Shown here piece by piece: positions 7,126-54,242 of a stretch of DNA of 64,000 nucleotides. Origin of the DNA: Micromonospora sp. NBC_00421 (GTDB lineage: Bacteria > Actinomycetota > Actinomycetes > Mycobacteriales > Micromonosporaceae); contig NZ_CP107929.1 of assembly GCF_036017915.1 (NCBI RefSeq), positions 5,088,001 to 5,152,000 of the forward strand. The letters are read 5' to 3'. The position numbers and the translations under genes were made by a program. Under the pieces are notes generated by a model. That model saw nothing but the letters and a program-made list of their open reading frames with translations, was not told the DNA's origin and ran no database searches. How positions within the stretch are numbered: the stretch's first letter is position 1; every line of letters begins with the position of its first letter.

Positions 7126-7405
7126 TGTCAGGATCTCGAGGACCAGCGCCCGCTGATCCGCTTCGCGATCTCATGGCGGGGCGGTCGTCGACATCCGGTC
7201 GACCTTTCCCGCATCAGCCGTTCGGCTGGTAATCGATCCGTTTTTCGGGTAGCATTCGATCCCTGAACTGGACGACATGACGCGGTGACCAGACCCGTGA
7301 TCGTGACCTTGCGACAGTGCGCAGCCCGTCCGCGTGCTACGGCGACAAGCCGATTCGGAGCACTTCCGGTCGTACCGATCAGCGGGCACGTGCGGAAGGC
7401 CCACC

Positions 7406-17394: not shown

Positions 17395-17523
17395 CCGTGC
17401 CGGCGGGCCGAGGTCCCTGCCGACGTACGTTCCTGCCGACGGTCCGCCACGTCGGCGGTCGCTCACGCTGGCCCACATCGCGGCCTAACCAGATTGCCGA
17501 ACCTGATCGTCTTCCTTGCGTTA

Positions 17524-18597
17524 CTAGGGGTCTCGGGGGTGCCGCAGGTGGTGGAGGTGGTCGGCCATACGTTGGGTGGCGGGGTGGTCGGGGTGGGCGC
17601 GGCGGTGGCGGGTGATGGTGTCGGTGAGGAGGGTGTGGGCGGCGTCGTGGTGGCCGAGGTCGTGCAGGACTAGCGCGGTGGTGGCCCGCACGGCGAGGGT
17701 GGGGTGCGCGTCGGGTCCGGCGGTGGTGGTGAGGTGGTCGGCGAGTTGCCGGTAGAGGCGGTAGGCGCGTTGGTGGTGTCCGGCCCGGTGGTGGGCGGTG
17801 GCGAGGGTGTGCGCGGCGCCCAGGGTGAGCGGGTCGGTGGGGCCGTGGAGGTGGGTGAAGCTGCGGTGGGCGTAGTCCGCCCAACGGATCGCGGCACGGC
17901 TGTGCAGGAGGGTGGCGAGGAGGTGTGCGGCGTCGGCGTGGTGGGTGCTGGTGGCGGTGGTGGCGGGATCGACGCCGGCGAGGATGCTCTGTAGGAGGTG
18001 GTGGGTGCGGGTGGGGTCGGTGGTGGCGAGTTGCCGGGCCACGCGCAACTCCTCGACCAGAGCATGCCGGGGTTGACCTGCAATGGTGGGCCAGGTGATG
18101 CGCAGGTCGGCGGGGCGCAGGCCGACGGTGATGCGGTTGACGAGCCGGTGAGCATGAGCAGCGGCGATGCCCGCCTGCTTGGGGTGGGTGAGGGCCGGTA
18201 CGAGGTGCGCGGCGTGCCCCAGCACCACCTTCCCCACGGCCTGGGCGACAGCCACCGCGTTCAGTGGGGGGCGGCGGCATGGCGGCGGGCAGTCGTAGAC
18301 GAGACCGGCGGCGGTGAAGGTTGCGGTCATGGGTTGTTGGCAGAACCGGCAGTGCAGCAGACCGTCCGGCAGCACCACCGGATCATCCCCAGCATCGGTG
18401 CGCGGCGTGGTGGGTGGGACTGCTGTGGTTGCTTGGGTGCGGGCTTTGGTGACCCAGGTTTGGAGGAGCCGGCGGTCGAGGTGGAGTTCCCGGGCGACGC
18501 TGCTGATCGGGCCACGCCGGCCGGTCGCGCGGGCGGCTTCGACCTGACGCACGGCGGCGGTCATGACATCGGAGGTGTACTTACGGGGCAAGGCCAT
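17524..18597 (-). CDS. Helix-turn-helix protein with zinc-ribbon-like motif and TPR-like region
   Basis: 357 residues. The N-terminus (PRKYTSDVMTAAVRQVEAA; SSVARELHLDRRLLQTWVTK) resembles transposase/Hin-like HTH domains. It is followed by paired cysteines (CRFCQQPM ... YDCPPPC) like the zinc ribbon of recombinases, then a long His/Ala-rich helical part (about 120-350) with TPR character (RAYRLYRQLADHL; LHDLGHHDAAHTLL). It may be a regulator of the neighbouring decarboxylase/permease operon, which lies upstream on the same strand after a 144-bp gap. I know no named family with this combination. Confidence 0.7.
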   Translation of the reverse strand: MALPRKYTSDVMTAAVRQVEAARATGRRGPISSVARELHLDRRLLQTWVTKARTQATTAVPPTTPRTDAGDDPVVLPDGLLHCRFCQQPMTATFTAAGLVYDCPPPCRRPPLNAVAVAQAVGKVVLGHAAHLVPALTHPKQAGIAAAHAHRLVNRITVGLRPADLRITWPTIAGQPRHALVEELRVARQLATTDPTRTHHLLQSILAGVDPATTATSTHHADAAHLLATLLHSRAAIRWADYAHRSFTHLHGPTDPLTLGAAHTLATAHHRAGHHQRAYRLYRQLADHLTTTAGPDAHPTLAVRATTALVLHDLGHHDAAHTLLTDTITRHRRAHPDHPATQRMADHLHHLRHPRDP

Positions 18598-18741
18598 CAG
18601 GAAGATCGGTCCCTCGGCAAGACGGATGGGCAGGGGGCGAGGTGAGGCCGGCGGGCCCGACCAGGGCGATGCGCCGGTTTGGTCGGGCTCGTGGACGCCG
18701 GCCGATGCGTCTGACCAGGCAGTCAGGGCTGCGGACGGCGG

Positions 18742-19965
18742 TCAGGGGGTGCTGATGCTGGCGGTTGGTGAGGACGCTGGTCGGGGGCGTGGGATCGATC
18801 TCGGGGTGCTGTCGGTGAGGTCGGCGACGAAGGCGTCGATCTGCCCTTGGGTGACGCCGGGCATACAGATGAGGTGACTGACGTCCGCGTCGGTAGCGAG
18901 CAGCCACTTCGCCCGTACCGGGGCGGGTGGGGTGGGCAGGACGACGGTGAAGGCGTGGGGGTGTCGCCAGGCGGGCCAGCCGGCGGCGGTGAGCTGGTCG
19001 ACGGTGTACGCGGCGAGACGGCGGGCTTCGCTGACCCGCCACCGGTGCCCCTCCCGCCCATGCGTGGCGATGGCATGCCACAGCAGGGCGGCAGCCAGCC
19101 CACAGCGCGACCCGGTGACCGTCGAGTCGAGCGTCGCGGTGTAGGTGACCGGGGCGCCCTCGCGGCGGAGGCTGTCGCGGATGAGGACCACCCCACACGG
19201 CGTCGGCACCCCGAAGAACTTGTGCCCCGACACCGCGATGCTGCCAATGCCGCTGTCGTCGTCCAGGCGCAGCCGCCCGTCGAGGGCCAGGGGGATGCCG
19301 GACAGGGCCGCATCGACGTGCACATGCCGGCCCGGCACCTCGAAGGCGTCGAGGACGGCCCGGATACGGGTGGTGTCGTCTACCGCCTCGGTCATGGTGG
19401 TCCCGGCGGTGGCGACCACGATCGCCGGCCACCGCCGGTGCCGGCGCACCCCGACGGCGAGGTGGTCGTAGTCCATCTCCCCGTCCGCACCCGCCTGGAC
19501 CACCACCCCGCGTGCGCCGAGCATCTCGACGATCTTCGGGATCGAGTAGTGCGCGGTAGTCGAGTAGTAGATCCGTGCCGTCGGAAGACGACGGCGGGCG
19601 GCGTGCAGGGCGGAGAGGTTGCCTTCGGTGCCGCCGGTGGTGACGTAGCCCCACCGGTCGTCGACCGGCATGGTCAGGGTGTCGGCGAGCCAAGCGATGA
19701 CGGCTTGTTCGAGGACCCGGGTGTGGGCGGTCCCGCCGACGTCGGTCGGGTCGCCGATGTTGTTCCACAGCCGGCGGCCGAGGCGGGCCATCACCTCCCG
19801 ATGGTCCAGGTCGACCGCGCCAGGGAAGCCGATGCTCGTCGGCGCGGCTGTGTCCGCATGGGTGACGAGGTGGTCGAGGACGGCGGTGATGTCGACCGGG
19901 GTACGGCTGAGGTCGGCGGCCTCGGCGAGACCACGCAGACGAGCGGGCACGGGGGTGTGGGTCAT
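18742..19965 (-). CDS. PLP-dependent amino-acid decarboxylase, histidine-decarboxylase-like (group II)
   Basis: 407 residues. Removes CO2 from an amino acid using pyridoxal phosphate. Motifs: FPGAVDLDHREVM and NNIGDPTDVGG at the N-terminus, VTTGGTEGNLSAL, STTAHYSIPKIVEMLG, ATAGTTMTEAVDD, HVDAALSGI (cofactor-ring Asp) and SGHKFFGVPTPCGVV with the Schiff-base lysine. NIGDP and the K-F-G-P-CGVV stretch are closest to bacterial histidine decarboxylases and related valine-type enzymes; substrate is not certain. Its start overlaps the upstream stop by 4 bp, and an amino-acid permease lies in the same operon. Confidence 0.9.
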   Translation of the reverse strand: MTHTPVPARLRGLAEAADLSRTPVDITAVLDHLVTHADTAAPTSIGFPGAVDLDHREVMARLGRRLWNNIGDPTDVGGTAHTRVLEQAVIAWLADTLTMPVDDRWGYVTTGGTEGNLSALHAARRRLPTARIYYSTTAHYSIPKIVEMLGARGVVVQAGADGEMDYDHLAVGVRRHRRWPAIVVATAGTTMTEAVDDTTRIRAVLDAFEVPGRHVHVDAALSGIPLALDGRLRLDDDSGIGSIAVSGHKFFGVPTPCGVVLIRDSLRREGAPVTYTATLDSTVTGSRCGLAAALLWHAIATHGREGHRWRVSEARRLAAYTVDQLTAAGWPAWRHPHAFTVVLPTPPAPVRAKWLLATDADVSHLICMPGVTQGQIDAFVADLTDSTPRSIPRPRPASSPTASISTP

Positions 19966-20975
19966 GCGCGGCGTCCGGTGAGGAGGTGCCCGGTGAGGGT
20001 GTGGTGCAGCATGGTCACCTGCCGCCAGGTGTCACGCGTGATGCTGTCGCCCTGGTCGGTGAGGTGTTCGTGGGGGTTGTAGTAGGTGACCCGGTCGGGG
20101 TCGAGGGGTTTGGTGCAGCGGACACCGTCCGCGCCGATCGGGGCATGGGGGTCACGGTCGACGTGCAGGACGGTGCCGTCGGTCAGCAGGACGAAACACT
20201 GACCCTTGAGGTCGAACACCGAACGGCGACGGTCATCGCCCGGGTGGCGCAGGGTCCGGGCGAGCTGCTGCCAACGCCCCTGGTCTGAGTCGAGGGTGGT
20301 CACCCCCACCCCGACGTAGACGGCCCCGGAAGGCAGGGTCATGTCGCCGCCGTTGACCATCGACCCCTGCGGGCCCAACGGATGCCACCACCGACCCGCC
20401 GACCCGGCCCGCGCAATGCTGTCCCCGACAACCTCGGTCAGGTCCGCCAGCAGGCGGGGCAGGTGCTGCGACTCCGGAGACGCCAGCCACAACCGGTAGG
20501 CGGTGTGCAGCTGGTAGCCGTGCGGCTGGGCCGCAGCTTCGGAGACGAAGAACAACATCACCCCGTGCGGGCCGAGCGCGTCACGCTGCCCGTACCGCTG
20601 GTCTGCTTCGATCATGTGTCCGGTGTTCAGGCGTTTCGCCCGGTAGACGACCTGCTGGCGCAGGTCGGCCCACCATCGGGCCTCGGCCGACACCCCGCTG
20701 TCGGGCTCCCCCTGCTGCGGGGGAGGTGACGGGGTGTGCTCGGGTGGGGCCGGGTGGACAGGGGTGTCCCGGCGGTACGGTCGCTCGTCGGGCATCCGGT
20801 AGTCCGGCGGGGGCGGCTGGACCAGGCTGAGACCCGGTGGGGGTTGGTGGTCTGCTGGTCGGCGGGGGCCGGGTGGTGGCGTCGGTCGTGGGGGTTCGGG
20901 TCGCCAGGCCGGGTCCAGCGGGTCACTGCTGTGGTGCCCCCGTGCCGCTGGTATGTGGACGGTGTAGGTCTTCAT
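19962..20975 (-). CDS. Hypothetical protein in the decarboxylase operon
   Basis: 337 residues. A proline-rich N-terminal third (about 20-95) leads to a globular part from about 100 (ARWWADLRQQVVYRAKRL; GPHGVMLFFVSEAAAQ; KGQCFVLLTDGTVLHVDRD; RVTYYNPHEHL). No family recognised, no membrane segment. GAGGAAG precedes the ATG. It overlaps the decarboxylase by 4 bp and follows the permease by 20 bp, so co-expression is expected. The Pro-rich tail suggests partner binding. Confidence 0.75.
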   Translation of the reverse strand: MKTYTVHIPAARGHHSSDPLDPAWRPEPPRPTPPPGPRRPADHQPPPGLSLVQPPPPDYRMPDERPYRRDTPVHPAPPEHTPSPPPQQGEPDSGVSAEARWWADLRQQVVYRAKRLNTGHMIEADQRYGQRDALGPHGVMLFFVSEAAAQPHGYQLHTAYRLWLASPESQHLPRLLADLTEVVGDSIARAGSAGRWWHPLGPQGSMVNGGDMTLPSGAVYVGVGVTTLDSDQGRWQQLARTLRHPGDDRRRSVFDLKGQCFVLLTDGTVLHVDRDPHAPIGADGVRCTKPLDPDRVTYYNPHEHLTDQGDSITRDTWRQVTMLHHTLTGHLLTGRRA

Positions 20976-20995
20976 GGTCGGGTCTTCCTCGGGGG

Positions 20996-22453
20996 TCAGA
21001 TGGAGATGTGGAGGGCGTCGGGTACGGCGTGGGTTTTCGGGGTGCCGTGGCCGATGCCGGCGTAGACCTCCGGCTGAGACCGCCGCAGGTGGGCGGCCCA
21101 CACGCCGCCCGCAATGGCGGTGGCGACGAGGATCGCCGGAAGCAGCAGCGGATACGGCGACCCCGGTACGGCTCCGAGGAGGGAGCCGACGTTGCCGACC
21201 ATCGCGACGAGGACCACCGACCCGCCGAGCACCCCCAACGCGGGTGCGACCTTCCACTGCCACATTCCGGCCCGTTCACCCCGCACTGCGGGTGGGGCGG
21301 CCAGTGCGGCGATCGAGGCGGCGAGGAGGAGGCAGAGCAAACCGAGCGCGCCGAGGGTGGACAGCCAGGTGAACGTCACCGCCACCGGATCAGTCCCGCT
21401 GACGGCGAACACCCCCACGACGAGGGCTGCCACCCCGGTTTGGCTGAGGGAGCCGCCGCGTGGGGCGCTGACCCGGGTCGTACTCCCGGTCTGGGCGAGA
21501 CCGGTGGGGAGGACACCTTCACGGGCCATGGCAAACACGTAGCGGGCGATGACGTTGTGGAACGCCAGCATCGAGGTGACGATCGCGAACACGAGCACCA
21601 GCCCGGCGATGCCCACCCACATCCCGCCTGCGGCTTCGAGGATCGTGAAGGGCAGGCCGGAGGACGGGTCGGCAGCGCGGGTGGCGACAGTCTGCGGGCC
21701 GACGGCGACACCCATCGCCCACGCCGCAGCGGCATACACACCACCCAGGACGAGGACGGCGGTGATCGTGGCGCGGCCAATCGACCGGCGGTCGACGGCT
21801 TCCTCGACGAACGAGCCGGGGGCGTCGACGCCCATGAACGCGGCCACACACAACGCCACCGCCCCACCGATCCCCCCGACCCCCAGACCGGAGACGTCGA
21901 ACCCCTCCCACGACACCGTCCCGTCGGACGGAGAACCGAGACCGGCGACGACGAACAGGCCGACGATCAGCAGCGACACCGCGAGGACCCCGCCGAGGAC
22001 CCAGGTGGACAGGACGATCGCCCGCACCCCGAGCGCGCTGACAACAGCCCAGGCGATGCCGGCCCACACCCACCAGGTGCCGCCGAGCTGGGCGGCGAGG
22101 GTCGCCCCGAACAGCCCGTACAGGCTGGTCTGGATCGCCGTGTACGCGACCAGGGCGACCAGGCCGGCGGCGACACCCCAACTGCGGCTGAGACCGTGGG
22201 CGAGGATGCCGTAGTACGCCGCCGGATGACCGACCTGCCGGGCCAGCGCGGTGTAACCCACCATCAGCAGTGCCACCACTGCGGCGACCAGGATGAACGT
22301 CAACGGCAACGCCGTCACCCGGGTCGTGGCGTAGGTGGTGACGAGACCACCGGCGAGGACCACCATCGGCGCGGACGCCGCCGCACCGAAAATCGACAAG
22401 CCAGTCGGAGTCATCGTCCGCCGGGCGAGCGCCACCTGCACATACGGCGTCAT
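20996..22453 (-). CDS. APC-superfamily amino-acid permease
   Basis: About 485 residues with roughly 12 to 14 hydrophobic helices. The first, FGAAASAPMVVLAGGL, lies in the position of the APC substrate-binding helix; LVALVAYTAIQTSLYGLFGA and VALCVAAFMGVDAPGSFVEEAVD (the APC helix-6 region) also fit. Likely imports or exchanges the decarboxylase substrate and amine product. The ATG at 22453 was chosen because it overlaps the upstream stop (ATGA) and has GGGGG five bases before it; a TTG 45 bp upstream is an alternative. Confidence 0.9.
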   Translation of the reverse strand: MTPYVQVALARRTMTPTGLSIFGAAASAPMVVLAGGLVTTYATTRVTALPLTFILVAAVVALLMVGYTALARQVGHPAAYYGILAHGLSRSWGVAAGLVALVAYTAIQTSLYGLFGATLAAQLGGTWWVWAGIAWAVVSALGVRAIVLSTWVLGGVLAVSLLIVGLFVVAGLGSPSDGTVSWEGFDVSGLGVGGIGGAVALCVAAFMGVDAPGSFVEEAVDRRSIGRATITAVLVLGGVYAAAAWAMGVAVGPQTVATRAADPSSGLPFTILEAAGGMWVGIAGLVLVFAIVTSMLAFHNVIARYVFAMAREGVLPTGLAQTGSTTRVSAPRGGSLSQTGVAALVVGVFAVSGTDPVAVTFTWLSTLGALGLLCLLLAASIAALAAPPAVRGERAGMWQWKVAPALGVLGGSVVLVAMVGNVGSLLGAVPGSPYPLLLPAILVATAIAGGVWAAHLRRSQPEVYAGIGHGTPKTHAVPDALHISI

Positions 22454-22851
22454 CGCTGCCCCCACTGCAACGAGTCCGGGCACGACAACTTCCGGCAACC
22501 CCGCACCGGATGTGACACCACATCGCCGGCGCTCGCGGTGACCAGCAACACCGCCGTCGGACGCACCGGCCCACCCCGCCAGTAACCCCGATCCCGGTCC
22601 AACCGCCGCAACGCCACACCCGCACGCGGCGTGAACCCGAACAGGTCATGCGCACCGTCCGACCACTCCCGACGGATCGCATACCCCCACAGATCCACCC
22701 CCGCCCCTACCCCCGCGCCGTCCTCGCCGTCCGCGCTGTCGGGGGCGGTGGGCCGCGAGCGGACAGGAGCCAACCAGGGCGGCAACCACCAGCCCAGCTC
22801 ACGCCGACGGGGCGGGAACATGACCACCGGACGATCGACAACAAACAACAT
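22450..22851 (-). CDS. Small hypothetical protein translationally coupled to the permease
   Basis: 133 residues, no family recognised. Trp/Arg-rich, with the segments ELGWWLPPWLAPVRS, LWGYAIRREWSDGAHDLFGF and LDRDRGYWRGGPVRPTAVLL. AAGGAGGG stands upstream of the ATG and the stop overlaps the permease start by 4 bp, so it is a true gene of the operon. The middle part resembles short all-beta or mixed domains fused to nothing else. Role unknown. Confidence 0.7.
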   Translation of the reverse strand: MLFVVDRPVVMFPPRRRELGWWLPPWLAPVRSRPTAPDSADGEDGAGVGAGVDLWGYAIRREWSDGAHDLFGFTPRAGVALRRLDRDRGYWRGGPVRPTAVLLVTASAGDVVSHPVRGCRKLSCPDSLQWGQR

Positions 22852-22964
22852 GAAGCAAGCCCTCCTTCAGAGAACGGGTACACAGGGATGACCGGCGGGC
22901 CACACGGCCATCGCCAGCTGCTGATCGGGGTGGTGCCCTACCGGGCGTGGTCAGGGAAACGTGG

Positions 22965-23654
22965 TCAGGGAGAACGCGGCGGTGCGGGGATGAGCCGGCC
23001 GCGCGACACGGTCACGCCACGGCGCAGCCGGGCCCGAGGGGGAAGCCCGCCACACGACCGACCGCTGTCGGGGGTGGGCCGCCACATCCGCCACAGGGCG
23101 GGACCGTCCGGCTCCAGCAGGATCGGTGACCTCGGCTCGTATCCCAGCGCGGCCAACAGGCCCTCCCGGGGGCGGCCACCCGGGCACTCCGCGTACGCAG
23201 GAAGCCCTTCGGTGTCTAACACCCGGTGGTGGGCGGCCAGCAACGCCCGCGCGGTGTCGTCGTGGCCGGGGTGGGTGGCGAGGTGCGCGAGGTAGGCGTG
23301 CGGGACGTGCGGCACCACGGCATCGAGGTACGCGTGCCACAGGGCAAACCGGGACGCCTGCGAGCCGAGGACCCGGTGCAGGTCGTACATCCACACCGCC
23401 GACGGCACCGGCACCTCCCCACGCCGGAACCACACCGCCACCGCCGACCGGTCCCCGGTTGTGTCGACCTGGCCGTGCGCCAACCCCCACGACACGGCCA
23501 GCCGCGCATACCGGCGCAGCACCTGCGGACGATCTGTGGCGACCGGCACCAACCAGGCACCCACCGGGCCCACCGACAACGCCTGCACGACGAGGACCGA
23601 CAACACGTCGAGATCCGCACCCGACGCCCGGCACACCACCGCCGACCGCGTCAC
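22965..23654 (-). CDS. GNAT-like acetyltransferase
   Basis: 229 residues. The C-terminal half reads like a GNAT fold: LAHLATHPGHDDTARALLAAH (acetyl-CoA-binding loop region), LPAYAECPGGRPREGLLAALGY and LWRMWRP. The N-terminal half is less conserved. The GTG start overlaps the stop of the oxidoreductase gene by 4 bp. The acceptor is unknown; an amine product of the downstream decarboxylase is one possibility. A 113-bp gap separates it from the next operon gene. Confidence 0.75.
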   Translation of the reverse strand: MTRSAVVCRASGADLDVLSVLVVQALSVGPVGAWLVPVATDRPQVLRRYARLAVSWGLAHGQVDTTGDRSAVAVWFRRGEVPVPSAVWMYDLHRVLGSQASRFALWHAYLDAVVPHVPHAYLAHLATHPGHDDTARALLAAHHRVLDTEGLPAYAECPGGRPREGLLAALGYEPRSPILLEPDGPALWRMWRPTPDSGRSCGGLPPRARLRRGVTVSRGRLIPAPPRSP

Positions 23655-24880
23655 GACACATCCCCCGCCCGGCGGTCCCCACCCTCGCCACCGGACGCCT
23701 CGCCGACCGTGGAAGTGCGTTGGCGGGATGCCCACAACGCCGCGTCGAAGGTGTGCCGGAACGTCACCGCCAGATGCAGATCACCCGGCTCCACCCCACC
23801 GATCGGCAACCACGCCCGTGCTTCCTCGACCAACTGCGGCGGCCCACACACCAACACCGCCTGCCCCGGTACGTAGTGGTACAACACCAGACCCACCAGG
23901 CCACCCTGCGCGGCCGGGTCGACATCCCCGTCGTCGGAGAACGCCAACACCACCGACAACCAGTCGCCATGCACCCGCCGCAGCATGGTCAACACCGCCG
24001 CGTCATACAGATCCCACAGGGTGCGGGAACCCACCACCAACGTCACCCGCCGCCGCACCGGCGACGCCGCGACCTGTTCCACCAACGCCCGCAACGGCGC
24101 CCACCCGGTACCCCCGGCAACCAGCAGTAGATCGGCGTCACCCGCCGGCAATGACAACCCCACCTCACACGCCGGCCCCAACCACAGCAACTCCCCCACC
24201 TCCACCTGCCCCACGAGCACAGGTGAGACGGCACCATTGGGAATGGCACGGATGTGGAACTCGACCGTCCCGTCCGGACGTGGCGCGTTCGCCGGAGACA
24301 ACCACCGCCACTGGCCCGGCATCCGAGGCGAGCACACCGGCAGGGCGTCACCCGGGGTGTAACGCAGACGCCGCACCGGACGGACCGTCACCACCGCGAC
24401 GTCGTCACACGCCGACACCACCGACTCCACCACACCGAACGTCACACTCGGGCCGTCACCCAGCATCCCTGCGGACTGCCCGGCCGAACGCCACACCCGA
24501 AGACAATCCTGCTCCCAGATGTGGGCCAACTCCGGCTTCCATGACTCCCCCGCGAACCGGCGCACCGTGTCCACCAGGGCCGCCGCGATCACCGCCCCGT
24601 GGTGCGGATGCAGGTCACACCGCCGATACCACCGGCCCAACACCACCAGACCCGCCCGACGGGCAGCAGGATCACCCCGACCAGCGATCGACTCCACCAA
24701 CGTCGAGAAGAACAGCGGCGCAAGCCGCTCCGGAAGGAATCGCACATCCCGATCCACCATGACCGACCAGAAGTGCTCCGCCGCCCGCTCATGATCAGCG
24801 GAGATGATAGTCGGCACCTCTGTTGGACCAAACTCGCGCGTTCGACCATTGGCCGAGAGGAGCCATTTCATCCGGCGCAT
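23651..24880 (-). CDS. Flavohaemoglobin-like oxidoreductase with an altered globin haem site
   Basis: 409 residues. The N-terminal about 150 residues follow a globin pattern (RAAEHFWSVMVDRDVRFLPE; GRWYRRCDLHPHHGAVIAAA; WEQ). From about 150 a ferredoxin-reductase half follows: FAD region RRLRYTPGDALPV, NAD-binding LLLVAGGTGWAPLRALVEQ, and CGPPQLVEEA. By eye, the residue in the usual proximal-His position of flavohaemoglobins is Tyr (in GRWYRR), so haem ligation may differ or be lost. GGAGAAGG precedes the ATG. First gene of the operon. Confidence 0.8.
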   Translation of the reverse strand: MRRMKWLLSANGRTREFGPTEVPTIISADHERAAEHFWSVMVDRDVRFLPERLAPLFFSTLVESIAGRGDPAARRAGLVVLGRWYRRCDLHPHHGAVIAAALVDTVRRFAGESWKPELAHIWEQDCLRVWRSAGQSAGMLGDGPSVTFGVVESVVSACDDVAVVTVRPVRRLRYTPGDALPVCSPRMPGQWRWLSPANAPRPDGTVEFHIRAIPNGAVSPVLVGQVEVGELLWLGPACEVGLSLPAGDADLLLVAGGTGWAPLRALVEQVAASPVRRRVTLVVGSRTLWDLYDAAVLTMLRRVHGDWLSVVLAFSDDGDVDPAAQGGLVGLVLYHYVPGQAVLVCGPPQLVEEARAWLPIGGVEPGDLHLAVTFRHTFDAALWASRQRTSTVGEASGGEGGDRRAGDVS

Positions 24881-25115
24881 TCACCTTCTCCGCCCAGGGT
24901 CCACGCTCGGGGATTGCTAGCCATAGATCAACAATCCCCGAAGGGCGGAGCTCCGGGAAGGCCGACCTTCGGTCCCACCTCACGTACTGACCTACGGTCC
25001 GACCAGCACATGAACTGCTAAGGAATCGCAGACATGAACTTTACTGGGATCCACAAGAGCGCCGCGATACGCGAAGCTCGCCGGCGAGCAAGGAGATATG
25101 ACACCCGAGCCAAGT

Positions 25116-26018
25116 TCAGGAAATCTCGCAGATGGGGGGTAGCGAGAGGATGGGGCGACGAAGTCGAACGCGCACGCCGCTACCGCCGGAAGCGATGTCG
25201 GCCAACTCGAAGCCGGGCGGGGTGAGGCACCATGCGGCTGCGAGATCAGCGGACGGTGAAGTTGCGTCTAGAGAGATCACGATCTCGTCGACGCAGTCGA
25301 GGCCCTCGCGGAGTTCGTCAGAGTGTTGGTCACCTATCAACAGGATGGACCGAGAGCCAGCGGCATAGCAGGTTGACAGCCACTCGCGAAGATCACTGGT
25401 CGGGTCGGTGGGTATCGTGAAGTGTGCGGAGGCGTGGCCACCGGGGGTGCCCTCCTCTATCGGGCCTCCGCCAAAAACGAGGTCTGCCGTCATACGCAGG
25501 TCGTTTGTCAGCCGCTCATCGGCCGCGACGCTGTCCTTGCCATCCGAGGCGTAGGCCCATGTCAGGTAGGGCCGGCGGCGCCGGGTAGCGACGAGCCAGG
25601 GCCCGAGGACTATAAGGGTCTCGTCGGGGATCACGTTCGTCTCGACGTCGACGCCGTGAGCGGTCAGGACGGCGGCACCCCCGTCGCCCCGGGATGTGGG
25701 ATCGATAATGCTGATAACGACTCGGGCTATGCCAGCATTAATGAGTTCTTGGCGGCAGGCCGGAGTGACGCCGATGTGGTTGCATGGTTCGAGCGTGACG
25801 ACGGCTGTGCCCCCTCGCGCTGCGCTCCCAGCTGCGCGCAGGGCGTTGACCTCGGCATGTGCTTCTCCCTTACGCCGGTGATACCCCGTGCCTACAACAT
25901 CGCCGTGGCGATCGAGGACGACGCAGCCGACAGGCGGGTTCGGACTCGTGGTGCCAAGACCGAATGATGACAGTGTGATCGCGTACCGCATCGCGGCCAA
26001 CTCTGATGCGGATGCCAT
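25116..26018 (-). CDS. RibD-like deaminase/reductase paralogue
   Basis: 300 residues. The N-terminal half is a riboflavin-pathway (diaminohydroxyphosphoribosylaminopyrimidine) deaminase: SPNPPVGCVVLDRHG, zinc-site HAEVNAL and TLEPCNHIGVTPAC. The C-terminal half keeps the RibD reductase opening (RPYLTWAYASDGKDSVAADE) but is shorter and diverged; bifunctional RibD is usually about 350-370 residues. No other riboflavin gene is nearby, so a role in a specialised pathway is more likely than housekeeping riboflavin synthesis. Start overlaps the upstream regulator stop (TGATG). Confidence 0.85.
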   Translation of the reverse strand: MASASELAAMRYAITLSSFGLGTTSPNPPVGCVVLDRHGDVVGTGYHRRKGEAHAEVNALRAAGSAARGGTAVVTLEPCNHIGVTPACRQELINAGIARVVISIIDPTSRGDGGAAVLTAHGVDVETNVIPDETLIVLGPWLVATRRRRPYLTWAYASDGKDSVAADERLTNDLRMTADLVFGGGPIEEGTPGGHASAHFTIPTDPTSDLREWLSTCYAAGSRSILLIGDQHSDELREGLDCVDEIVISLDATSPSADLAAAWCLTPPGFELADIASGGSGVRVRLRRPILSLPPICEIS

Positions 26019-27259
26019 CAGGAAGCCTCCTTGAGTTCATCGAGGAAGGCACGGACGTGCGGGAGTTGCTGGTGCACGCGAATGATGGTGCCGAGTTGGG
26101 CGAGTCCATCAAGGACTCGCCGTGCTCCCGCCCGACGGGCGATGCGCAAAGCACGATGTGCCGTCGCGGCGGCCAAGTCGGGCTGGCTGGCTGCGGCATG
26201 GGCGGCGGCCTTGGTCAAGAGGGCGGATGCGAAGTCTTGACGATGCCGCGATGGGATCGTCGGAAGAGCTTCGTCCAGCACAGCGATCGCCTCCGTTGGA
26301 CGCTGCGCCAACCGAAGGCATGCGCCCCGGTGCACCTCGATGTAACCGCTGGTGCAGTAGGAGCCGTGCTCCCCCTCAGGCTTGCCTGGACGACGGTCTG
26401 CTGCCCAGTTATGCGCGTCGTCGAGCAGACGCATGGCCGCGTGGTGCTCGCCCGTACCCGCCAGGGCGTGCGCGTGCTGAACCCGCAGTGCCGCTCGCAT
26501 CGGTCCAGGCAGCTTCTGGTCGTAGCGCAACGCCGCTTCGGCCTGCTCAACTGCTCGGGTAAATCGCCCAGCGGCCAGTTTCTGCTGACTGCTGCGGTAG
26601 ATGGCCCAAGCAGTCATCGCGGGGTCGGCGATCTGCCGTGCCCAGAAGAGTGCTTGCTGGGCCCAGCGCTGGCCTGCGTAGTGGTCATTGAGGGACTGGT
26701 TGAGCCAAGCAGCAGACTCGGCGTACTGGGCAGCGAGCCGAACCGCCGCAGGCCGCAGGGTCTCAGGTACCTCATGCAGAAGCGCCTCGATCGTCGCGAG
26801 TTGCCTACTGACCCCCATCAAGGCATACTCCGGCCCGAACGTCTTGTCGTTCTGAACCAGAAGATGCCACTCCTCGCGCAGCAAGTGGATCGTCTCGTCC
26901 CAACTGCCTGGTCGAGCTTCGAGCTGCCCGTCGACGATGTGCGCCCCATCGCTCCTTCGCGGACTGTAGAGATCAATATCCGCATCGGTGGCGGCATCGA
27001 GCACCTTGCGCAGGGCAGCCCTTCGTGCTGCGCTGGGCCAACGATGCTCGCCGCGCTCCAACTTGCCAATCCAACGAAAGTCGACGTAGTGGGCGGTAAC
27101 GTCACGGCCCGAGTAAATGGCGTCAAGCGTCGCGTTGACTGCGTCAGCCAGCTCACTCCGGGACATACACTGGCCGGGACGCATCGGTGACGGCAACCGT
27201 TTCCGGGCAGCGGTGAGCACGGTGTTCGGCGCGATCACCGTGTCCGGATGACGAGGCAC
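26018..27259 (-). CDS. XRE-like regulator with TPR domain
   Basis: 413 residues. The N-terminal about 90 residues carry an XRE-like helix-turn-helix region (MSRSELADAVNATLDAIYSG; VDFRWIGKLERGEHRWPS), followed by helical repeats of TPR type (SAAWLNQSLNDHYAGQRWAQ; AIAVLDEALPTIPSRHRQDF; ATAHRALRIARRAG). The GTG at 27259 has GGAG upstream. Such proteins often sense small peptides or metabolites in actinomycetes. It is coupled to the RibD-like gene and divergent from another TPR gene. Confidence 0.85.
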   Translation of the reverse strand: MPRHPDTVIAPNTVLTAARKRLPSPMRPGQCMSRSELADAVNATLDAIYSGRDVTAHYVDFRWIGKLERGEHRWPSAARRAALRKVLDAATDADIDLYSPRRSDGAHIVDGQLEARPGSWDETIHLLREEWHLLVQNDKTFGPEYALMGVSRQLATIEALLHEVPETLRPAAVRLAAQYAESAAWLNQSLNDHYAGQRWAQQALFWARQIADPAMTAWAIYRSSQQKLAAGRFTRAVEQAEAALRYDQKLPGPMRAALRVQHAHALAGTGEHHAAMRLLDDAHNWAADRRPGKPEGEHGSYCTSGYIEVHRGACLRLAQRPTEAIAVLDEALPTIPSRHRQDFASALLTKAAAHAAASQPDLAAATAHRALRIARRAGARRVLDGLAQLGTIIRVHQQLPHVRAFLDELKEAS

Positions 27260-27474
27260 CCTCTCTCCTCTCGGTCCAGCTTGCCGGGCCCTGCCGACTA
27301 TGCCACCGGCTGTATAGATCAGCCACCTGCGATACAGCACAGGTCTGGAAACAACACGGCTGAGTTTAAGGACGTCAGTGTCCTGCCGAGAGTGCCGACA
27401 CCCGTCTGTCGTACGGCAAGGCCAACCACACCCCGGACGAAGCGGCGGACACCTTCGTCTCAGTCCTGCGCGCG

Positions 27475-28581
27475 ATGGGCACCAACGGTGCAGCCGAAAG
27501 CACCACGCTGCCGCATACCGGTCCGGATGCCGATACTGGTGAGGACAGCCACCACAGCTCGGACTCGGATGGTGACGTGCGACGGCGAGACTTTCTGCGC
27601 AGCGCTGCGGTCAGCGTCGCCGGTGCCCCCGGCGTCGCGCCGGTGCTCGACGCGCTCGTCTCGCTCCGGCAACCACCGGCCACGGTGTTGTCCGTGCAGC
27701 AGCTCTCCCGCAAGGTGGCCACCGTCAAACACGACTACCAGGCATGCCGGTACGAGCGCGTCCTCGATCAGCTCGTCACGCTGCTACCCGCCCTCGAGCC
27801 CGCAACGGTCGACGCGGAAAGCGGGCATCAGATGCAGGTCAACGTCCTCGCCGCCGAGCTGTACCACGTCGTCGGTAGCGTCCTGCTCAAGCTGGGCGAC
27901 CGTGGGATGGCCCTGATCGCCGCCGAGCGGAGCACCCGCGCCGCCGCGACGAGCCAGGACCCGGTGGCGGTCGCCGCGAGCGCACGGATCATGACCCACG
28001 CTCTGATGAGCAACCACCACGACGACCAGGCGGTAACCCTCGCCGCAGACGCGGCCGGCGTACTCGACCGGGACACCCGCCTCGCATCGACCGACGCGGT
28101 CGCCGTGTACGGCTCCCTCGTCCTACGCGGTGCCGTCGCCGCAGCCCGCCGCGACGACCGGGACACCGCACACACCATGCTCGACGAAGCGACCCGCGCC
28201 GCGACCCGACTCGGCTATGACGGCAACGACCGGTGGACCGGCTTCGGTGCCACCAACGTCCTGCTGCACCGGGTCAACATCGCCCTCACCCTCGGCGACG
28301 CCGGCACCGCCATCGACATCGCCCGCACCGTGCCCCTGGAAAAGGTGACCCTCGCCGAACGCAAAGCCACGCTGCACGTCGATGTGGCCCGCGCCTACAC
28401 CCAGTGGGGACGCCACGAACAGGGCCTCAACGCCCTCCGCACCGCATACGAGGTCGCACCCGAAGAGATCCGCTGCCGCCCAGCAGTCCACCGCCTCACC
28501 AACGACCTCACCCGCCTCACCACGGGCCCGATACGCGCAGCCGTCGTCAACTTCACCCAGACCGCCGGAATCCCCCAATGA
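27475..28581 (+). CDS. TPR-domain regulator, apparently lacking its N-terminal HTH
   Basis: 368 residues from an ATG. It begins inside a pattern that in relatives lies downstream of a DNA-binding domain: the in-frame DNA before the ATG still reads like coding (SYGKANHTPDEAADTF ...) until a TAA near 27367. RRRDFLRSAAVSVAGAP and TPR-like repeats (VLDQLVTLLPALEPATVD; MALIAAERSTRAAATS; LHVDVARAYTQWGRHEQGL) follow. It may be a 5'-truncated XRE regulator or start at an unusual codon. The stop overlaps the flavoprotein start by 4 bp. Confidence 0.75.
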   Translation: MGTNGAAESTTLPHTGPDADTGEDSHHSSDSDGDVRRRDFLRSAAVSVAGAPGVAPVLDALVSLRQPPATVLSVQQLSRKVATVKHDYQACRYERVLDQLVTLLPALEPATVDAESGHQMQVNVLAAELYHVVGSVLLKLGDRGMALIAAERSTRAAATSQDPVAVAASARIMTHALMSNHHDDQAVTLAADAAGVLDRDTRLASTDAVAVYGSLVLRGAVAAARRDDRDTAHTMLDEATRAATRLGYDGNDRWTGFGATNVLLHRVNIALTLGDAGTAIDIARTVPLEKVTLAERKATLHVDVARAYTQWGRHEQGLNALRTAYEVAPEEIRCRPAVHRLTNDLTRLTTGPIRAAVVNFTQTAGIPQ

Positions 28582-29123
28582 CAGGCAACCACCTCCAGAT
28601 CGTCGTCTGCGCCGCCGGCCCCGCACCCGACGTCACCACCCTGATTAACACCGCACACCAGCAGTCCTGGACCGCAGCGGTCACCGCCACACCCGACGCA
28701 ACCAGCTTCATCGACATACCGGCCATCGAAAAGCTGACCGGCACTCCCGTGCGATCCGACTACCGCGCAGCTCCGGGCACCCGCCGCTCGCTACCCACCA
28801 CCGATGCACTGGTCGTCGCACCCGCGACCTATAACTCCATCAACAAGATCGCCCTCGGCCTCGCCGACAACTACGCCATGACCACCATCGCCGAACTCAT
28901 CGGACGACACATACCCACCGTCATTGTCCCCTTCGTCAACACCGCCCTCGCCACACGACTCCCCTTCCGCCACGCCGTAGCCAGCCTCCGCGCCGAAGGG
29001 CTACACATCATGCTCGGCCCGGAACACGGCTGGGAGCCACACCCGCCCGGTGGCGGCAACGACCGGCAGAGCGACTTTCCCTGGACAACCGCGTTCGAGA
29101 TCGCGGCCCGGCATGCTGCCTAA
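28578..29123 (+). CDS. Flavoprotein of the HFCD/Dfp family
   Basis: 181 residues, a single Rossmann-like flavoprotein domain as in phosphopantothenoylcysteine decarboxylase and LanD. Visible: VVCAAGPAPDVTTL at the N-terminus (replacing the usual GSI/A motif), TDALVVAPATYNSINKIALGLADNY (the PAT and NxxxK flavin/active-site region), TVIVPFVN and MLGPEHGWEP. Actinomycetes often pair such a flavoprotein with a TPR/XRE regulator. Substrate unknown. The ATG overlaps the upstream stop (ATGA). Confidence 0.85.
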   Translation: MTGNHLQIVVCAAGPAPDVTTLINTAHQQSWTAAVTATPDATSFIDIPAIEKLTGTPVRSDYRAAPGTRRSLPTTDALVVAPATYNSINKIALGLADNYAMTTIAELIGRHIPTVIVPFVNTALATRLPFRHAVASLRAEGLHIMLGPEHGWEPHPPGGGNDRQSDFPWTTAFEIAARHAA

Positions 29124-29582
29124 TCGATGAAAAGCGCCGAGGCGAACGGGTGCGGGGGTGGGAAAGCCCGCAGCAGCACCAAACGCGCCTTGCCGTCGAA
29201 CTGCGGTCAGCCGACGTCTTCCGCGACAGGTTCCGACTCAACCCCCGCGTCGTACGCGGATGAAGCCAGGCGAAGGCCGCCGAGAAATGGAACCAGCGCT
29301 TGCCCAACTCACATCGGTCACGCCCACCACCCTACGGACGCCCCACACCCCACCCTTCCCCGCGCGACGGGGAACTACGCTGAGCAAGTATCAAGTACAC
29401 GAACAAGAAGACGCCTACCGACGGCGAACGTAGCTGTTGATCAATGCGACCAGAGCCGGCAGAACTATCGACGGGCGCGCCCCGACGCGACACGGCGGCG
29501 GGCCGCAGGCCCACCCTTGACCAAGTAAAGAAATCCCAAACACACGTACGCGAATATTCCTGACCTCATTCTGACGCCGACA
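29124..29582. other. Gene-free interval with possible coding debris
   Basis: 459 bp between the convergent flavoprotein and HNH genes. Short frames such as RLAVELRSADVFRDRFRLNP (about 29190-29250) have actinomycete-like codon use but break quickly, suggesting a gene remnant. No terminator or RNA gene recognised. Confidence 0.45.
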
Positions 29583-30314
29583 CTACAGACGGCAACCCGC
29601 AAAAATCGACTTCACTATAGGAAGACTGTGCAATGCATAACGGGCCAGTTCGGGAGCGACGGCCTTATGGATGAGGCGGTCGGTGGCGACGTCGTGCGCG
29701 AAGTGGTGAAATGCGTCGACCACTGGCAAGAAGCGCAGATCCTCCAGGTCATCGGCATCGATCGTAGGCTTTTCGCGTGCCGCCTGCTCGAAGACGCGGA
29801 TGACACCCCGCCACGATCGATATCGCGCCTCAACTAACTCGCTGCGGGCATTGAGTCCGAGCAGGTCGATGGTCTCGCGGCCCTGGGGCGTGAGGTCGAT
29901 AAACTGCCCGGTACTGGCGAGGGTCATGTGGTCGGCGGAGTCGTCCACGCTAGGGTCCAGCAGCAGCGGATGCCCGGTCAGGTCGACCGGGAAACGCTCC
30001 TTCTTTGCCTGCTGATTGCAATAGCCGCAGGCGAGGATGTGGTTTTTCCATTCGAAGGTTCGCGCAGGATCGCGGGCAATCGGCACGAAATGGTCGACGT
30101 CCGTGCCGCGGCTTTCGTAGCAGTACATGCAGAATGAAGGTCGCGCACACATTCGTAGAAGCTGAGCCTTGAGCTGTCGGCGGGTACCGGTTGCGGCGCT
30201 CCAACTCGCGCGAGCCGTCTTTTGAGGGGTTGCGCTGGCCACAATCTGCGCGGTTTTGTCGATTAGGCGCTCTGAGATCTGCACGGGAAGCGGCCGACGC
30301 GCGATCGGGATCAA
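29583..30314 (-). CDS. ptuB: HNH endonuclease of a Septu-like (PtuB) defence pair
   Basis: 243 residues. Zinc-finger HNH nuclease: CMYC (62-65), DVDHF (catalytic His about 75), the N-H pair (91-92) and CGYCN (96-100). The C-terminal half is helical with no known domain. Its ATG overlaps the stop of the upstream ATPase gene by 4 bp (ATGA). The ATPase-then-HNH order is that of the Septu anti-phage system (PtuA + PtuB). Base composition is less GC-rich than neighbours, consistent with transfer. Confidence 0.8.
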   Translation of the reverse strand: MIPIARRPLPVQISERLIDKTAQIVASATPQKTARASWSAATGTRRQLKAQLLRMCARPSFCMYCYESRGTDVDHFVPIARDPARTFEWKNHILACGYCNQQAKKERFPVDLTGHPLLLDPSVDDSADHMTLASTGQFIDLTPQGRETIDLLGLNARSELVEARYRSWRGVIRVFEQAAREKPTIDADDLEDLRFLPVVDAFHHFAHDVATDRLIHKAVAPELARYALHSLPIVKSIFAGCRL

Positions 30315-31648
30315 ACGTCGTCCCCCAACACGTCACGCACCCGGCTCCCGGGCGACGGCGACAGAGCCTCGGACAACTCCGTCAGCCTGGCGAGATCTTC
30401 TGGGCTTGCCTGACCGCGAATGGCGAGCCGCTCCAGTCGGGTCAGCGCACTTCGCAGCTCGTCAACGCGTTCGGAGTACGGTGAGTCCAATCCGAATAGC
30501 TCCGTCAAAACAGCATCGTCACCACTTCCATTCACGACACGCCGGAAGAGTTCCTCGTTGGCGATACGCGGTGGGAACAATTCCTCCGGCCCTGGAAGCT
30601 GAATCAGGCCACCCGGCGACGCACTCTGACAAATATACGGGCTATGGCTTGTGACAATGAACTGAATGAATGGGAAATGCTCCAGCAGCCATGGCGCGAT
30701 ACGTTTTTGCCAGGAAACGTGAAGATGGACGTCGATCTCGTCAATGAGTACGACTCCCGACGTGAAGATGACCGCCTGACCTTCTTCACCCCACTCAATC
30801 TTCCCGTCGAAGCATTCGTTTATTTGGCGCACGATATCGGTTACCAGTGCCGTGACGGTGCGGTAGCCGTCGCTCATCTCGTCGATTCGGACGGGCATTC
30901 CGGACTCCTTGGTAATCCACAGACCGTCCGGATCGACCCTATCAACCAAATAGCCGTCGGGAAACAGGCCGTCGTTAAGAAGCCCGATGACACGCTCCTC
31001 CAACTCCGCATAACCGGCACGCCCGGATCTGGCGCGATAGTTGACCTGCTGAAGCCACTGCACCGTCTCGGCGAGTGAGGCTTCCTCTCGGAACAGAGTT
31101 ATGAAGCGTGCCGCTGTCCAGTCTCCGGCCATCAGGCGTGCGACCTCGCCGCTCGTGCCGGCCAAGCGCCGGAATGGCCCGTAGCCCGCGGCGAACCAGC
31201 CAGTCGGTTTCGGAGACCAGAGCGATCGCTCGGCCATCTTGCCGCCTCGACCGCGGCGTGTGTCGGCCTGAGGCCGCGCTCGCGCACCTTCAGTCCGTTC
31301 CCATTTCAGTGCAGCGGCGAAGGAGTCCGCAGGTCGGCCCGCGCCCAGGTTGACCTCGAAGGAGTCTCGTACGATCTCTGCGCTGACCGTTGCCATTGTC
31401 TGTCCATGACTGATCCAGTCCCGATCGCCCTCCGTCAAGCTGTTCGCTACCTCGGGACCGGCCAGCGCAGTTGCGGCGGCACGAAGGAGGGTTGTTTTAC
31501 CTGACCCATTGCGGCCAGCGATAACGCAGAATCCCCGATAGCGCTTGAAAAGATCTTTATCGTCGGTGTTCCGCTCAAAGCGGAGGTCGACAGCGCGAGA
31601 CCCCTGGAAGCCTCGCACTCCCTGGATGCGCAGGCGCTGTAAGTACAC
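30311..31648 (-). CDS. ptuA: AAA/ABC-type ATPase of a Septu-like (PtuA) defence pair
   Basis: 445 residues. RecF/SMC-related overcoming-lysogenisation-type ATPase: MYLQRLRIQGVRGFQG start, Walker A GRNGSGKT (45-52), signature-like EMSDGYRTV, Walker B VVLIDEIDVHLH and a switch-region IVTSHSPYI. No C-terminal TOPRIM domain is visible, unlike OLD nucleases, so nuclease activity is supplied by the coupled HNH protein. This matches PtuA. GC content is visibly lower than in flanking chromosomal genes. Confidence 0.82.
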   Translation of the reverse strand: MYLQRLRIQGVRGFQGSRAVDLRFERNTDDKDLFKRYRGFCVIAGRNGSGKTTLLRAAATALAGPEVANSLTEGDRDWISHGQTMATVSAEIVRDSFEVNLGAGRPADSFAAALKWERTEGARARPQADTRRGRGGKMAERSLWSPKPTGWFAAGYGPFRRLAGTSGEVARLMAGDWTAARFITLFREEASLAETVQWLQQVNYRARSGRAGYAELEERVIGLLNDGLFPDGYLVDRVDPDGLWITKESGMPVRIDEMSDGYRTVTALVTDIVRQINECFDGKIEWGEEGQAVIFTSGVVLIDEIDVHLHVSWQKRIAPWLLEHFPFIQFIVTSHSPYICQSASPGGLIQLPGPEELFPPRIANEELFRRVVNGSGDDAVLTELFGLDSPYSERVDELRSALTRLERLAIRGQASPEDLARLTELSEALSPSPGSRVRDVLGDDV

Positions 31649-32129
31649 CGACAGTCCTCCACCAATCTACGGTCCGTGCTTAGTCGATAGCGCTGATCGC
31701 TGCGAGCAGTCTACTGCTGTAGCCGGGAGCGGGTCATCGTCTCGGTGCTCCGGTGGACTGCTCCTTGGCTAGAGGTGTTGGCTCGCACAGGTCTCACCCG
31801 ACATCAGACACTGAGAGTCGCTTGACACATGCATCAACGACCTCCCGCAGTTGGTCACCACCAAATCCTCTCCGGCTGCCTGGAACCTCTCGGCTTTGGC
31901 GGACGGTTCGCGTACCCGATCACGCGACCTCCGGGTGCCCGCGCGCCGTCGATGTTCGTGAGGGAGTCGCCACTCAGTACGCATCGGGCTGGCGGCTCGC
32001 CTACTGCGTACGCAGCTTGCCGGATCGGTTCCGGGCTGGGCTACTGCTGCCGTCTCTGGTGACCCGTGGCGTGCCTTCGGCAGCGTCAGGTACACCCGTT
32101 CGCCGTTATCGATTGGGGATGCCGCCTCC
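31649..32129. other. Gene-free interval
   Basis: 481 bp upstream of the ATPase. Mixed composition, no ORF with a ribosome site or recognisable protein. It probably holds the promoter of the ATPase/HNH pair and degraded sequence. Confidence 0.5.
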
Positions 32130-32661
32130 GTGTCACACGTCGAGAAGATCACCGGTGAACTCCGCGCCCTGACGGCCGGCGTCGAGCGGGCCCAGGGGTT
32201 GACGGCCGCCGCCCACCTTCAGGCGCAGGAGATCGCGCTGCGGGCCACCACCGCCGGCTTCCTCGTCGTCGCCGCAGCGTCGCCCGGGCCCGCACCGCGC
32301 TCACCGACGTCCAGGGCGGCCTGCCTGGGAAGACTCGAAGGGTCGACCGGTGAGGCGACGAAAGCCGTCACCCCCGTACCCCAGCAGGCCACCCCGCAGA
32401 AGACGATCGCCGCACTGACGCCCGTGCAGAGCGCCGTCGGCACCGCCCGCGACTCGGCAGGCAGCGCCATCACCCGGATCGGTGAGACACAACAACTCCG
32501 TCACCACGATCCTCCACGGTGGACAATCCGGACCCCTGCTACAGGCCCTGGACGGCATCAAGCAGGTGCTGATGCAGGTTGTCGCCCGCACCAGCGGCGC
32601 ACGAAAGGCCATCGAGACGGCGATCGCCGAGGCACAACGGGTGGGATCAACGGGAAACTGA
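32130..32661 (+). pseudogene. DUF6244-like protein, frameshifted
   Basis: Starts MSHVEKITGELRALTAGVER with a clear helical protein, but the frame is broken. After about residue 45 the coding signal moves to another frame (VARARTALTDVQGG), returns (LEGSTGEATKAVTAVP-like), then shifts again near 32490 (NSVTTILHGGQSGPLLQAL ... IAEAQRVGSTGN, stop at 32659-32661). Reassembled, it would be a helical protein of about 175 residues like the DUF6244 family I recall from Micromonospora. Confidence 0.65.
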
Positions 32662-32879
32662 CCGGGGCTGGAGGCCACCCACCGCCCAGCCCCAGCCCCA
32701 GCCGCGCGGATCGTGTCCCTGGAAGGACGCTGCGCGCAGTCAGCACATCTGGGTGATCTCCCATGACGGGCCCGAGTCGTTCGAGGAGGCCAATGCCGCC
32801 TACCGGGCTTCGGATCGCCGTAAGACGCTGGGGCTGGACCCGGGCAACTACCTCGTGGATGAGGAAACCTGGGAGGTAG

Positions 32880-33066
32880 AGCAGACGCTAGGAGTTCCCG
32901 CTGCCCGGGAGCAGGTGGGTTCGCCGCTCGTCGTCGGTGAGCGCGCGGAACACTCGGGTACGGGCTCGGGTGCCCAGGCCACCACGCCGACCCGCTTCTC
33001 GTGGCCGCTGAGCACGAGGGGCCGGTTGGTGCCGGCGAGGTCCCAAATCTCTACGATCATTACCAA
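32880..33066 (-). pseudogene. Remnant of a WD40-repeat gene
   Basis: The minus strand encodes one clear WD40 blade (VEIWDLAGTNRPLVLSGHEK, then RVGVVAWAPE), after which the reading shifts frame (RTRVFRALTDDE). Only about one repeat remains. No start region or further blades are present, so this is a fragment. Confidence 0.5.
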
Positions 33067-33125
33067 TTACTAAAAGTGCTTTTATCCTTAACAATAGTAT
33101 TCATAACCCCACACTATTTGCCGCA
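33057..33125. other. AT-rich patch at the edge of the accessory region
   Basis: About 70 bp of strikingly AT-rich DNA in a GC-rich genome, including the small inverted repeat TAAAAG-TG-CTTTTA (33071-33084). It marks the junction between debris and the conserved PP2C gene and could be an old integration boundary. Confidence 0.4.
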
Positions 33126-33180
33126 TCATCTCGGCGCGCCGTAGGCGGATCATCGATCCGGGACTCCGGCGACGGCCGAC

Positions 33181-34395
33181 TCAGGGGGCTGTTGTCCGCA
33201 GGTCGTGCAGGTGGGACAGCGGTGCGTGCGGTGGACGCCACTCCAGCAACAGCGCCGTCGCGTCGTCGTCGAGCTGCCCCGACTGGTACGCGACCACCGC
33301 GCGCACCAGCCGGCGCATCGTCTCCGGGGTGGCCAGCTGGTCGTTGAGGGCCCGGTTGACGAAGTCGACGAGACGCGTCAACCCGAACCGTTCCCCGTCG
33401 ATGCCACGCGCGTCGGTGATGCCGTCGGTGTAGGCGAGGATGCGGTCCCCAGGGTGCAGCTCCTCCTCGTACACCTCGGGGCGGTGGGTCGCGAGGTGAC
33501 CCAGGCCGAGCGGGAGCGCGGTCGGGCCCGGCAGCTCCCGGATCGCCTTGCCGTCGCGCAGCAGCAGGGCACCCGGGTGGCCGGCGTTGATCATCCGGAG
33601 CCGGCCGGTGCTCCGCTCCAGCTCGACCAGGAGCGCCGTGGCGAACATGTGCGGGTGCTCGGAGCGCACCCACCTGTCGATGCTGGTCGCCGTGTCGACC
33701 AGGTCGAGGCCACAGCGGCGCGCGTTGCGGTAGGCGCTCACCACCAGGGAGGCCAGGGTGCTCGCCTTGATGCCGTGCCCGCAGGTGTCGAACAGCCCGA
33801 CGCTGAGCACGTCACCGTTGAGCGCGTAGTCGAAGATGTCCCCGCCGACGTCGTAGCACGGTTCGAGGATGGTGGTGAGCACCATGTCGTCGGTGGCGAA
33901 GGTCAGCGGCGGCAGCAGGCCCCAGACGATCTCGGCGGCGACCTGCATCGGCAGCCGACGCCGCAGCCGTTCCACGACGTCGCCGTACGGTCGGCGGTTC
34001 ACCACGAGTTGCGCGACACAGGTCGCCAACTCCCAGGCCGGCTCGTTCATCGCCGGGTCCCCGGCGGCCGGCGAGACGATCTCCAGCACGCCCATCCGTT
34101 CGCACCCGACGAGCAGCGGGACCCAGATCCGGTCCGGGCTGTCGGGCGCGCGCTGCACGTCGAGGCCGGTGAACGCCCGACCGGCGAGGGTCGTCTCGAT
34201 CGGCAGCGCCTCGCGGTCCAGGCCGGCACCGAGCAGCGGTACGAGGCTGGCCTGCTGGTAGTCCGCCAGGTAGATCACGATCTCGGTGGCGTCGATGGCC
34301 GGCGCGGCCCGGTTCACCAGCAATGGCAGGTCGTCCGGCCCCCCGCGAGGCGCGGCGAGCTGGAGCCAACGCACCGCGTCACCCGCGTCGACCAA
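33181..34395 (-). CDS. PP2C (SpoIIE-type) serine phosphatase
   Basis: 404 residues. N-terminal GAF-like region (about 10-150; ATEIVIYLADYQQASLVPLL; GRAFTGLDVQRA; WVPLLVGCERMGVLEIV), then an SpoIIE domain with metal-binding GGDIFDYA, FDTCGHGIKAS, INAGHPGALLL and LDDDATALLLEW. It should act on a STAS protein, as the paralogue at 8846 does. The TTG at 34395 was chosen for GGGGGAGG six bases upstream; a GTG 30 bp further up is possible. Confidence 0.9.
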   Translation of the reverse strand: MVDAGDAVRWLQLAAPRGGPDDLPLLVNRAAPAIDATEIVIYLADYQQASLVPLLGAGLDREALPIETTLAGRAFTGLDVQRAPDSPDRIWVPLLVGCERMGVLEIVSPAAGDPAMNEPAWELATCVAQLVVNRRPYGDVVERLRRRLPMQVAAEIVWGLLPPLTFATDDMVLTTILEPCYDVGGDIFDYALNGDVLSVGLFDTCGHGIKASTLASLVVSAYRNARRCGLDLVDTATSIDRWVRSEHPHMFATALLVELERSTGRLRMINAGHPGALLLRDGKAIRELPGPTALPLGLGHLATHRPEVYEEELHPGDRILAYTDGITDARGIDGERFGLTRLVDFVNRALNDQLATPETMRRLVRAVVAYQSGQLDDDATALLLEWRPPHAPLSHLHDLRTTAP

Positions 34396-54230: not shown

Positions 54231-54242
54231 GAAGGGAAAACT

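Follow-up and report, generated by a model that had tools for sequence, protein, structure and literature searches.

A Septu-like PtuA/PtuB gene pair in a variable segment of a Micromonospora genome

We analyzed a 64,000-nucleotide stretch of the genome of Micromonospora sp. NBC_00421 (assembly GCF_036017915.1, contig NZ_CP107929.1, positions 5,088,001 to 5,152,000; hereafter the window) and within it a pair of genes, ptuA and ptuB, encoding an ATPase and an HNH nuclease that resemble the two components of the Septu anti-phage defence system. The initial annotation had described an ATPase gene followed by an HNH gene with a 4-bp overlap, and both open reading frames (ORFs) are present at the coordinates and on the strand given in Table 1, sharing four bases, an overlap which suggests that the two genes may be translationally coupled. 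The motifs it had named, GRNGSGKT (Walker A), VVLIDEIDVHLH (Walker B), CMYC, DVDH and CGYCN, all occur in the translations. PtuA carries the Walker A residue K51, the Walker B residues D303 and E304 and a signature-like S259-D260-G261, while PtuB carries the HNH residues H75 and N91, spaced 16 residues apart, together with four zinc-type cysteines (C62, C65, C96 and C99). The source genome holds a single copy of PtuA.

Table 1. Coordinates of the gene pair and of the segment that contains it (positions in the window).
Feature	Coordinates	Strand	Basis
ptuA, SMC/ABC-type (SMC-like) ATPase, 445 aa, GTG start	30311..31648	-	ORF; PADLOC PtuA profile; conserved residues; AlphaFold model
ptuB, HNH nuclease, 243 aa, TTG start	29583..30314	-	ORF; PADLOC PtuB profile; Pfam HNH above cut-off; invariant residues; fold match
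Stop/start overlap TTGA, 4 bp, joining ptuA and ptuB	30311..30314	-	Sequence
Variable (accessory) segment holding ptuAB	17398..33203		blastn of the window against locus L045

Profile searches assign both genes to Septu. The best PADLOC profile for the ATPase is PDLC00269 (510.9 bits, E = 9.7e-154, profile positions 1-440 of 446) and the best for the nuclease is PDLC00317 (246.6 bits, E = 7.9e-74), both far beyond what chance would give; PtuA and PtuB profiles rank first, and no OLD or TOPRIM family was seen. This reading has to be qualified in one respect, as an mREase_IV pair of ATPase and HNH profiles is the runner-up for both genes (PDLC03660, 300.2 bits, and PDLC03661, 131.1 bits). In Pfam, the ATPase matches AAA_21 above its cut-off and 16 families in all, including AAA_15 and AAA_23 and, as had been proposed, no TOPRIM domain among them; the HNH family exceeds its cut-off for PtuB. 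Retron-type NCBIfam models score far below their cut-offs (93.1 against 500 for PtuA and 38.2 against 150 for PtuB). A sequence search of solved structures returned Septu and retron PtuA as the top matches for the ATPase and retron PtuB for the HNH protein. Similarly, the best matches of the AlphaFold models of both proteins are solved Septu and retron PtuA/PtuB chains; the PtuB model matches the fold of the E. coli Septu PtuB chain 8eea_G, and the top VIA-align rows for the PtuA model are retron I-A PtuA chains. The VIA-align rows for the two models include no OLD protein, an absence that carries no weight. The PtuA/PtuB arrangement suggested at first reading is thus borne out by the PADLOC profiles, the fold matches to solved chains and the order of the genes. 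Septu-like defence is well supported by these sequence comparisons, and the pair very probably belongs to Septu with a gated nuclease. It is an intact-looking, ordinary Septu pair, a new example of a known system and not a new system type.

The residues on which this function would depend are conserved in relatives. Counts refer to the aligned rows only, which were chosen for spread: 40 for PtuA (the window's protein and 39 of the 120 homologues listed from 1372 found, each of at least 420 aa) and 28 for PtuB (the window's protein and 27 of 51 homologues, each of at least 225 aa). K51, D303 and E304 of PtuA are invariant (40/40) and S259-D260-G261 is at least 90% conserved, while D74, H75, N91 and all four cysteines of PtuB are invariant (28/28).

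The gene order is also widely kept. A PtuB match lies directly downstream of ptuA in 18 of 21 relatives' loci, each from a distinct genome, a count from which G006, a weakly matching genome of the genus, was excluded. Three loci (L004, L038 and L040) have ptuA without an adjoining PtuB or HNH match, and among the 18, one ends at a contig edge (L039), one is without the HNH core (L034) and one is in two frames (L033), leaving 15 with a match across most of PtuB; apart from L039, these departures may represent decay or ATPase-only variants. The 4-bp overlap, judged in relatives from the PtuA stop and the start of the PtuB alignment, is retained in all nine closer relatives with ptuB (L003, L005 and L026-L032) and in five of nine more distant ones (L035, L036, L039, L042 and L043). 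No third conserved component was found beside ptuAB within about 7 kb on each side of ptuA (E ≤ 1e-12) in the 21 relatives' loci, where other window ORFs were matched in just four, one, one and one loci. Three of these four ORFs lie over kdpE/kdpD (two) and a DUF1304 gene (one), beyond the variable segment, and the fourth lies on the opposite strand, overlapping the beginning of ptuA. Synteny of the remaining genes is confined to subgroups, for example L028-L032.

To describe the distribution of the pair, we searched genomes of the genus and family for PtuA; these searches scored few first-look candidates in each genome (at most 16 in the genus and at most five in the family), so that the counts are lower bounds. 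With a limit of E ≤ 0.001, a PtuA match was obtained in at least two of 101 genus genomes, namely the window's own and, along no more than 50 residues, G006; among the candidates scored the window's genome alone has a full-length PtuA. At least 38 of 300 family genomes match, 27 of them, including the window's, with one match of at least 400 of the 445 residues. The nearest PtuA among the 120 matches listed of 1372 is 93% identical and comes from Micromonospora sp. NBRC 101691. The pair therefore adds a stand-alone, intact-looking Septu system to a genus in which this PtuA is rare (full-length in one of 101 genomes among the candidates scored). Among the papers listed by our literature searches, which included Streptomyces, Actinobacteria and Micromonospora, no study of actinobacterial Septu came to notice; the search on Actinobacteria and Micromonospora was noisy ("septu" also matches "septum"). 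In G006 (locus L002, 1501-2555), a weak PtuA match (50 residues, 36% identity) adjoins a weak PtuB match downstream (30%, residues 62-202), and this genome probably carries a distant ATPase and HNH pair of another subgroup.

The pair had been placed in a low-GC accessory stretch next to gene debris, and the analysis agrees with this on each point. The flanks of the window stop at 17397 and resume at 33204, corresponding to positions 7385 and 8820 of L045 (blastn); in the nearest relative, G011, these flanks are about 90-95% identical and lie 1,434 bp apart, with unrelated sequence between them, against 15.8 kb in the window, which places ptuAB in a replaceable segment. With this segment replaced in G011 and full-length PtuA seen in one of 101 genomes, the locus is accessory and not core. 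The GC content of positions 30001-31000 is 0.585, compared with 0.712 for the whole window. A DUF6244 gene adjoining the pair (32130-32756; domain at about 32.1-32.7 kb) is broken, with profile positions 1-37 in one frame and 38-87 in the other. DNA related to this gene is present in several genomes of the genus.

Codon use of the pair is atypical. The GC content at third codon positions (GC3) is 0.675 for ptuA and 0.717 for ptuB, against a mean of 0.922 (standard deviation 0.034, minimum 0.828) for 33 called genes longer than 600 bp, a mean biased upward because the codon-based gene caller that supplied it was trained on high-GC3 ORFs. The same caller missed ptuA and shortened ptuB, and the ORF-list coordinates were taken for both. 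Across 22 loci, the window's included, the GC content of ptuA is clearly below that of its locus in 20 (the window's among them; the exceptions are L032 and L040), so that part of the low GC is characteristic of the gene family, and low GC alone does not prove recent transfer. The Septu pair was probably acquired horizontally. Of 89 plasmid records with a match, 15 span 80% or more of PtuA, and in each of the three examined among the 89 a second gene follows the ATPase: an annotated HNH gene with no overlap on a Kitasatospora plasmid, and a "hypothetical protein" gene on a Methylobacterium plasmid (4-bp overlap) and a Hymenobacter plasmid (11-bp overlap). A phage-borne origin was considered and rejected; eight phage records match PtuA and none covers 80% of the query.

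The window holds several other features. A block at 18802-24801 encodes a histidine-decarboxylase-like pyridoxal-phosphate enzyme and an FAD/NAD oxidoreductase, and G011 carries related blocks at other places, one of them a copy at 85% identity and the other divided into two pieces at 82-87%. At 25116-27340, a RibD-type deaminase gene adjoins one for an NsdA-family tetratricopeptide repeat regulator, and at 27475-29123 a second, weakly NsdA-like tetratricopeptide repeat protein gene has a 4-bp overlap with one for a CoaBC-like flavoprotein; positions 27849-29096 recur elsewhere in G011 at 91% identity. A c-di-AMP (ydaO/yuaA) riboswitch is found at 54108-54239 on the forward strand (84.5 bits, cut-off 38).

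By analogy with solved relatives, PtuA would oligomerise into an SMC-like ATPase scaffold that recruits PtuB, with ATP-bound PtuA restraining the HNH nuclease. Phage infection would free the nuclease, which may then cut nucleic acid and so halt the production of phage, with the infected cell probably being sacrificed. Li and colleagues (NSMB, 2024) reportedly described PtuB together with a hexamer of PtuA, under inhibition by ATP. We lean weakly towards DNA as the target of the nuclease, because this branch keeps a four-cysteine HNH domain and adjoins ATPases from actinobacteria for which a type IV restriction profile gives a score as well.

PtuAB systems seem to differ in their targets, with tRNA-Tyr reported for some and DNA for another. 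An alternative within Septu, and one that overlaps with the assignment above, is that the nuclease depletes host tRNA-Tyr and so causes abortive infection. Depletion of tRNA-Tyr is reported for two studied PtuAB pairs: E. coli Septu EcB88, which is described as cleaving the variable loop of this tRNA (PMC13096335), and retron-Eco7 (PMC11555353). EcB88 is called typical of abortive infection, yet T6-infected cells are reported to have lysed at high multiplicity (PMC13096335). H75 and N91 of the window's PtuB carry the same numbers and the same 16-residue spacing as their EcB88 counterparts. Against this, Septu of E. coli ATCC 25922 is reported to target DNA and retron-Eco4 PtuAB likely spares tRNA (PMC11555353), and the cysteine matching C99, the second of the CGYC pair and invariant in the 28 PtuB sequences, is absent from the four retron PtuB alignments shown. 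We consider tRNA-Tyr cleavage possible, though less probable than action on DNA.

A second alternative, which likewise overlaps with the Septu assignment, is that the pair is a type IV restriction system of two subunits that depends on NTP, in which the ATPase and HNH proteins jointly recognise and cut incoming DNA containing 5-methylcytosine (m5C) and do not react to infection at large. The mREase_IV profiles are second-best for both genes, and ten scanned relatives score on both Septu and mREase_IV profiles. A possible precedent comes from Streptomyces coelicolor, where the two-gene system ScoA3II+III (Sco3261-62) is reported in a review to restrict DNA carrying m5C and not N6-methyladenine (m6A) in vivo (PMC3874153, Table 1). 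However, the PtuA and PtuB profiles are ahead by about 211 and 116 bits, PtuA or PtuB ranks first and mREase_IV second in all ten of those relatives (seven ATPases and three HNH proteins), and the best mREase_IV stretch on the ATPase is limited to 150-442. PDLC03660 and PDLC03661 may derive from Sco3261-62, which is a guess on our part. The source genome also encodes a C5-cytosine methyltransferase of its own (PF00145, 215.6 bits), a mild argument against indiscriminate restriction of m5C that is not decisive, because restriction may need another sequence context. Matches to PDLC03660 occur in 14 of 394 genomes of the class, the window's included, with a best score of 459 bits. In a tree of 26 PtuA sequences the window's protein falls in a 12-row clade with support 100/100, and seven rows from the mREase_IV search lie outside it, among Streptomyces- and Streptosporangium-type proteins. 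Type IV restriction by this pair is thus rather unlikely, and the broader proposal that actinobacterial PtuA/PtuB form a methyl-sensing branch of Septu, performing ATP-dependent type IV restriction on m5C DNA, is somewhat more doubtful again. If true, the latter would tie Sco3261-62 to Septu and make the choice between modified DNA and tRNA branch-dependent. Databases attach both the Septu PtuA/PtuB label and that of type IV methyl-directed restriction to the same actinobacterial ATPase and HNH proteins, and through this double labelling the target of PtuB could be tested directly in hosts from the actinobacteria.

It is extremely improbable that the pair is an ATPase-nuclease of the OLD/Gabija type or the effector cassette of a retron I-A: retron effectors are indeed PtuA/PtuB homologues, but for PtuA the ATPase_I-A retron profile of PADLOC reaches 101.5 bits against 511 for the PtuA profile, the NCBIfam retron models are well under their cut-offs for both proteins, RVT_1 has no match in the whole 7.23-Mb genome (the same search was positive in three of 14 control genomes), ruling out a retron I-A effector and making this a stand-alone, non-retron Septu, and the lack of TOPRIM among the Pfam matches of the ATPase rules out OLD/Gabija.

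Compared with known systems, the Septu pair of the window is a distant relative of the E. coli Septu of solved structure (PDB 8eea, 8ee4 and 8sux; 16-22% identity over aligned residues) and differs from it as an actinobacterial branch whose HNH protein has four invariant cysteines. It shares with EcB88 both PtuA and PtuB, and the residues corresponding to its Walker A, Walker B, H and N positions are reported to be essential in EcB88, where immunity is lost when either the H-N-H motif or the Walker motifs of PtuA are substituted (PMC13096335); EcB88 is reported to cleave tRNA-Tyr, whereas for the window's pair DNA is the weakly favoured target. The retron I-A PtuA/PtuB proteins (Ec78/Eco7, Ec83 and one further retron IA) are a homologous ATPase and HNH pair, in contrast accompanied by a reverse transcriptase, which was not found in the window's genome, and by an N-terminal extension of PtuA, as the window's protein begins at their residues 45-64. 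The mREase_IV pair of PADLOC is again an ATPase with an HNH protein and gives the second-best profiles, set apart from this Septu pair by the differences in score given above.
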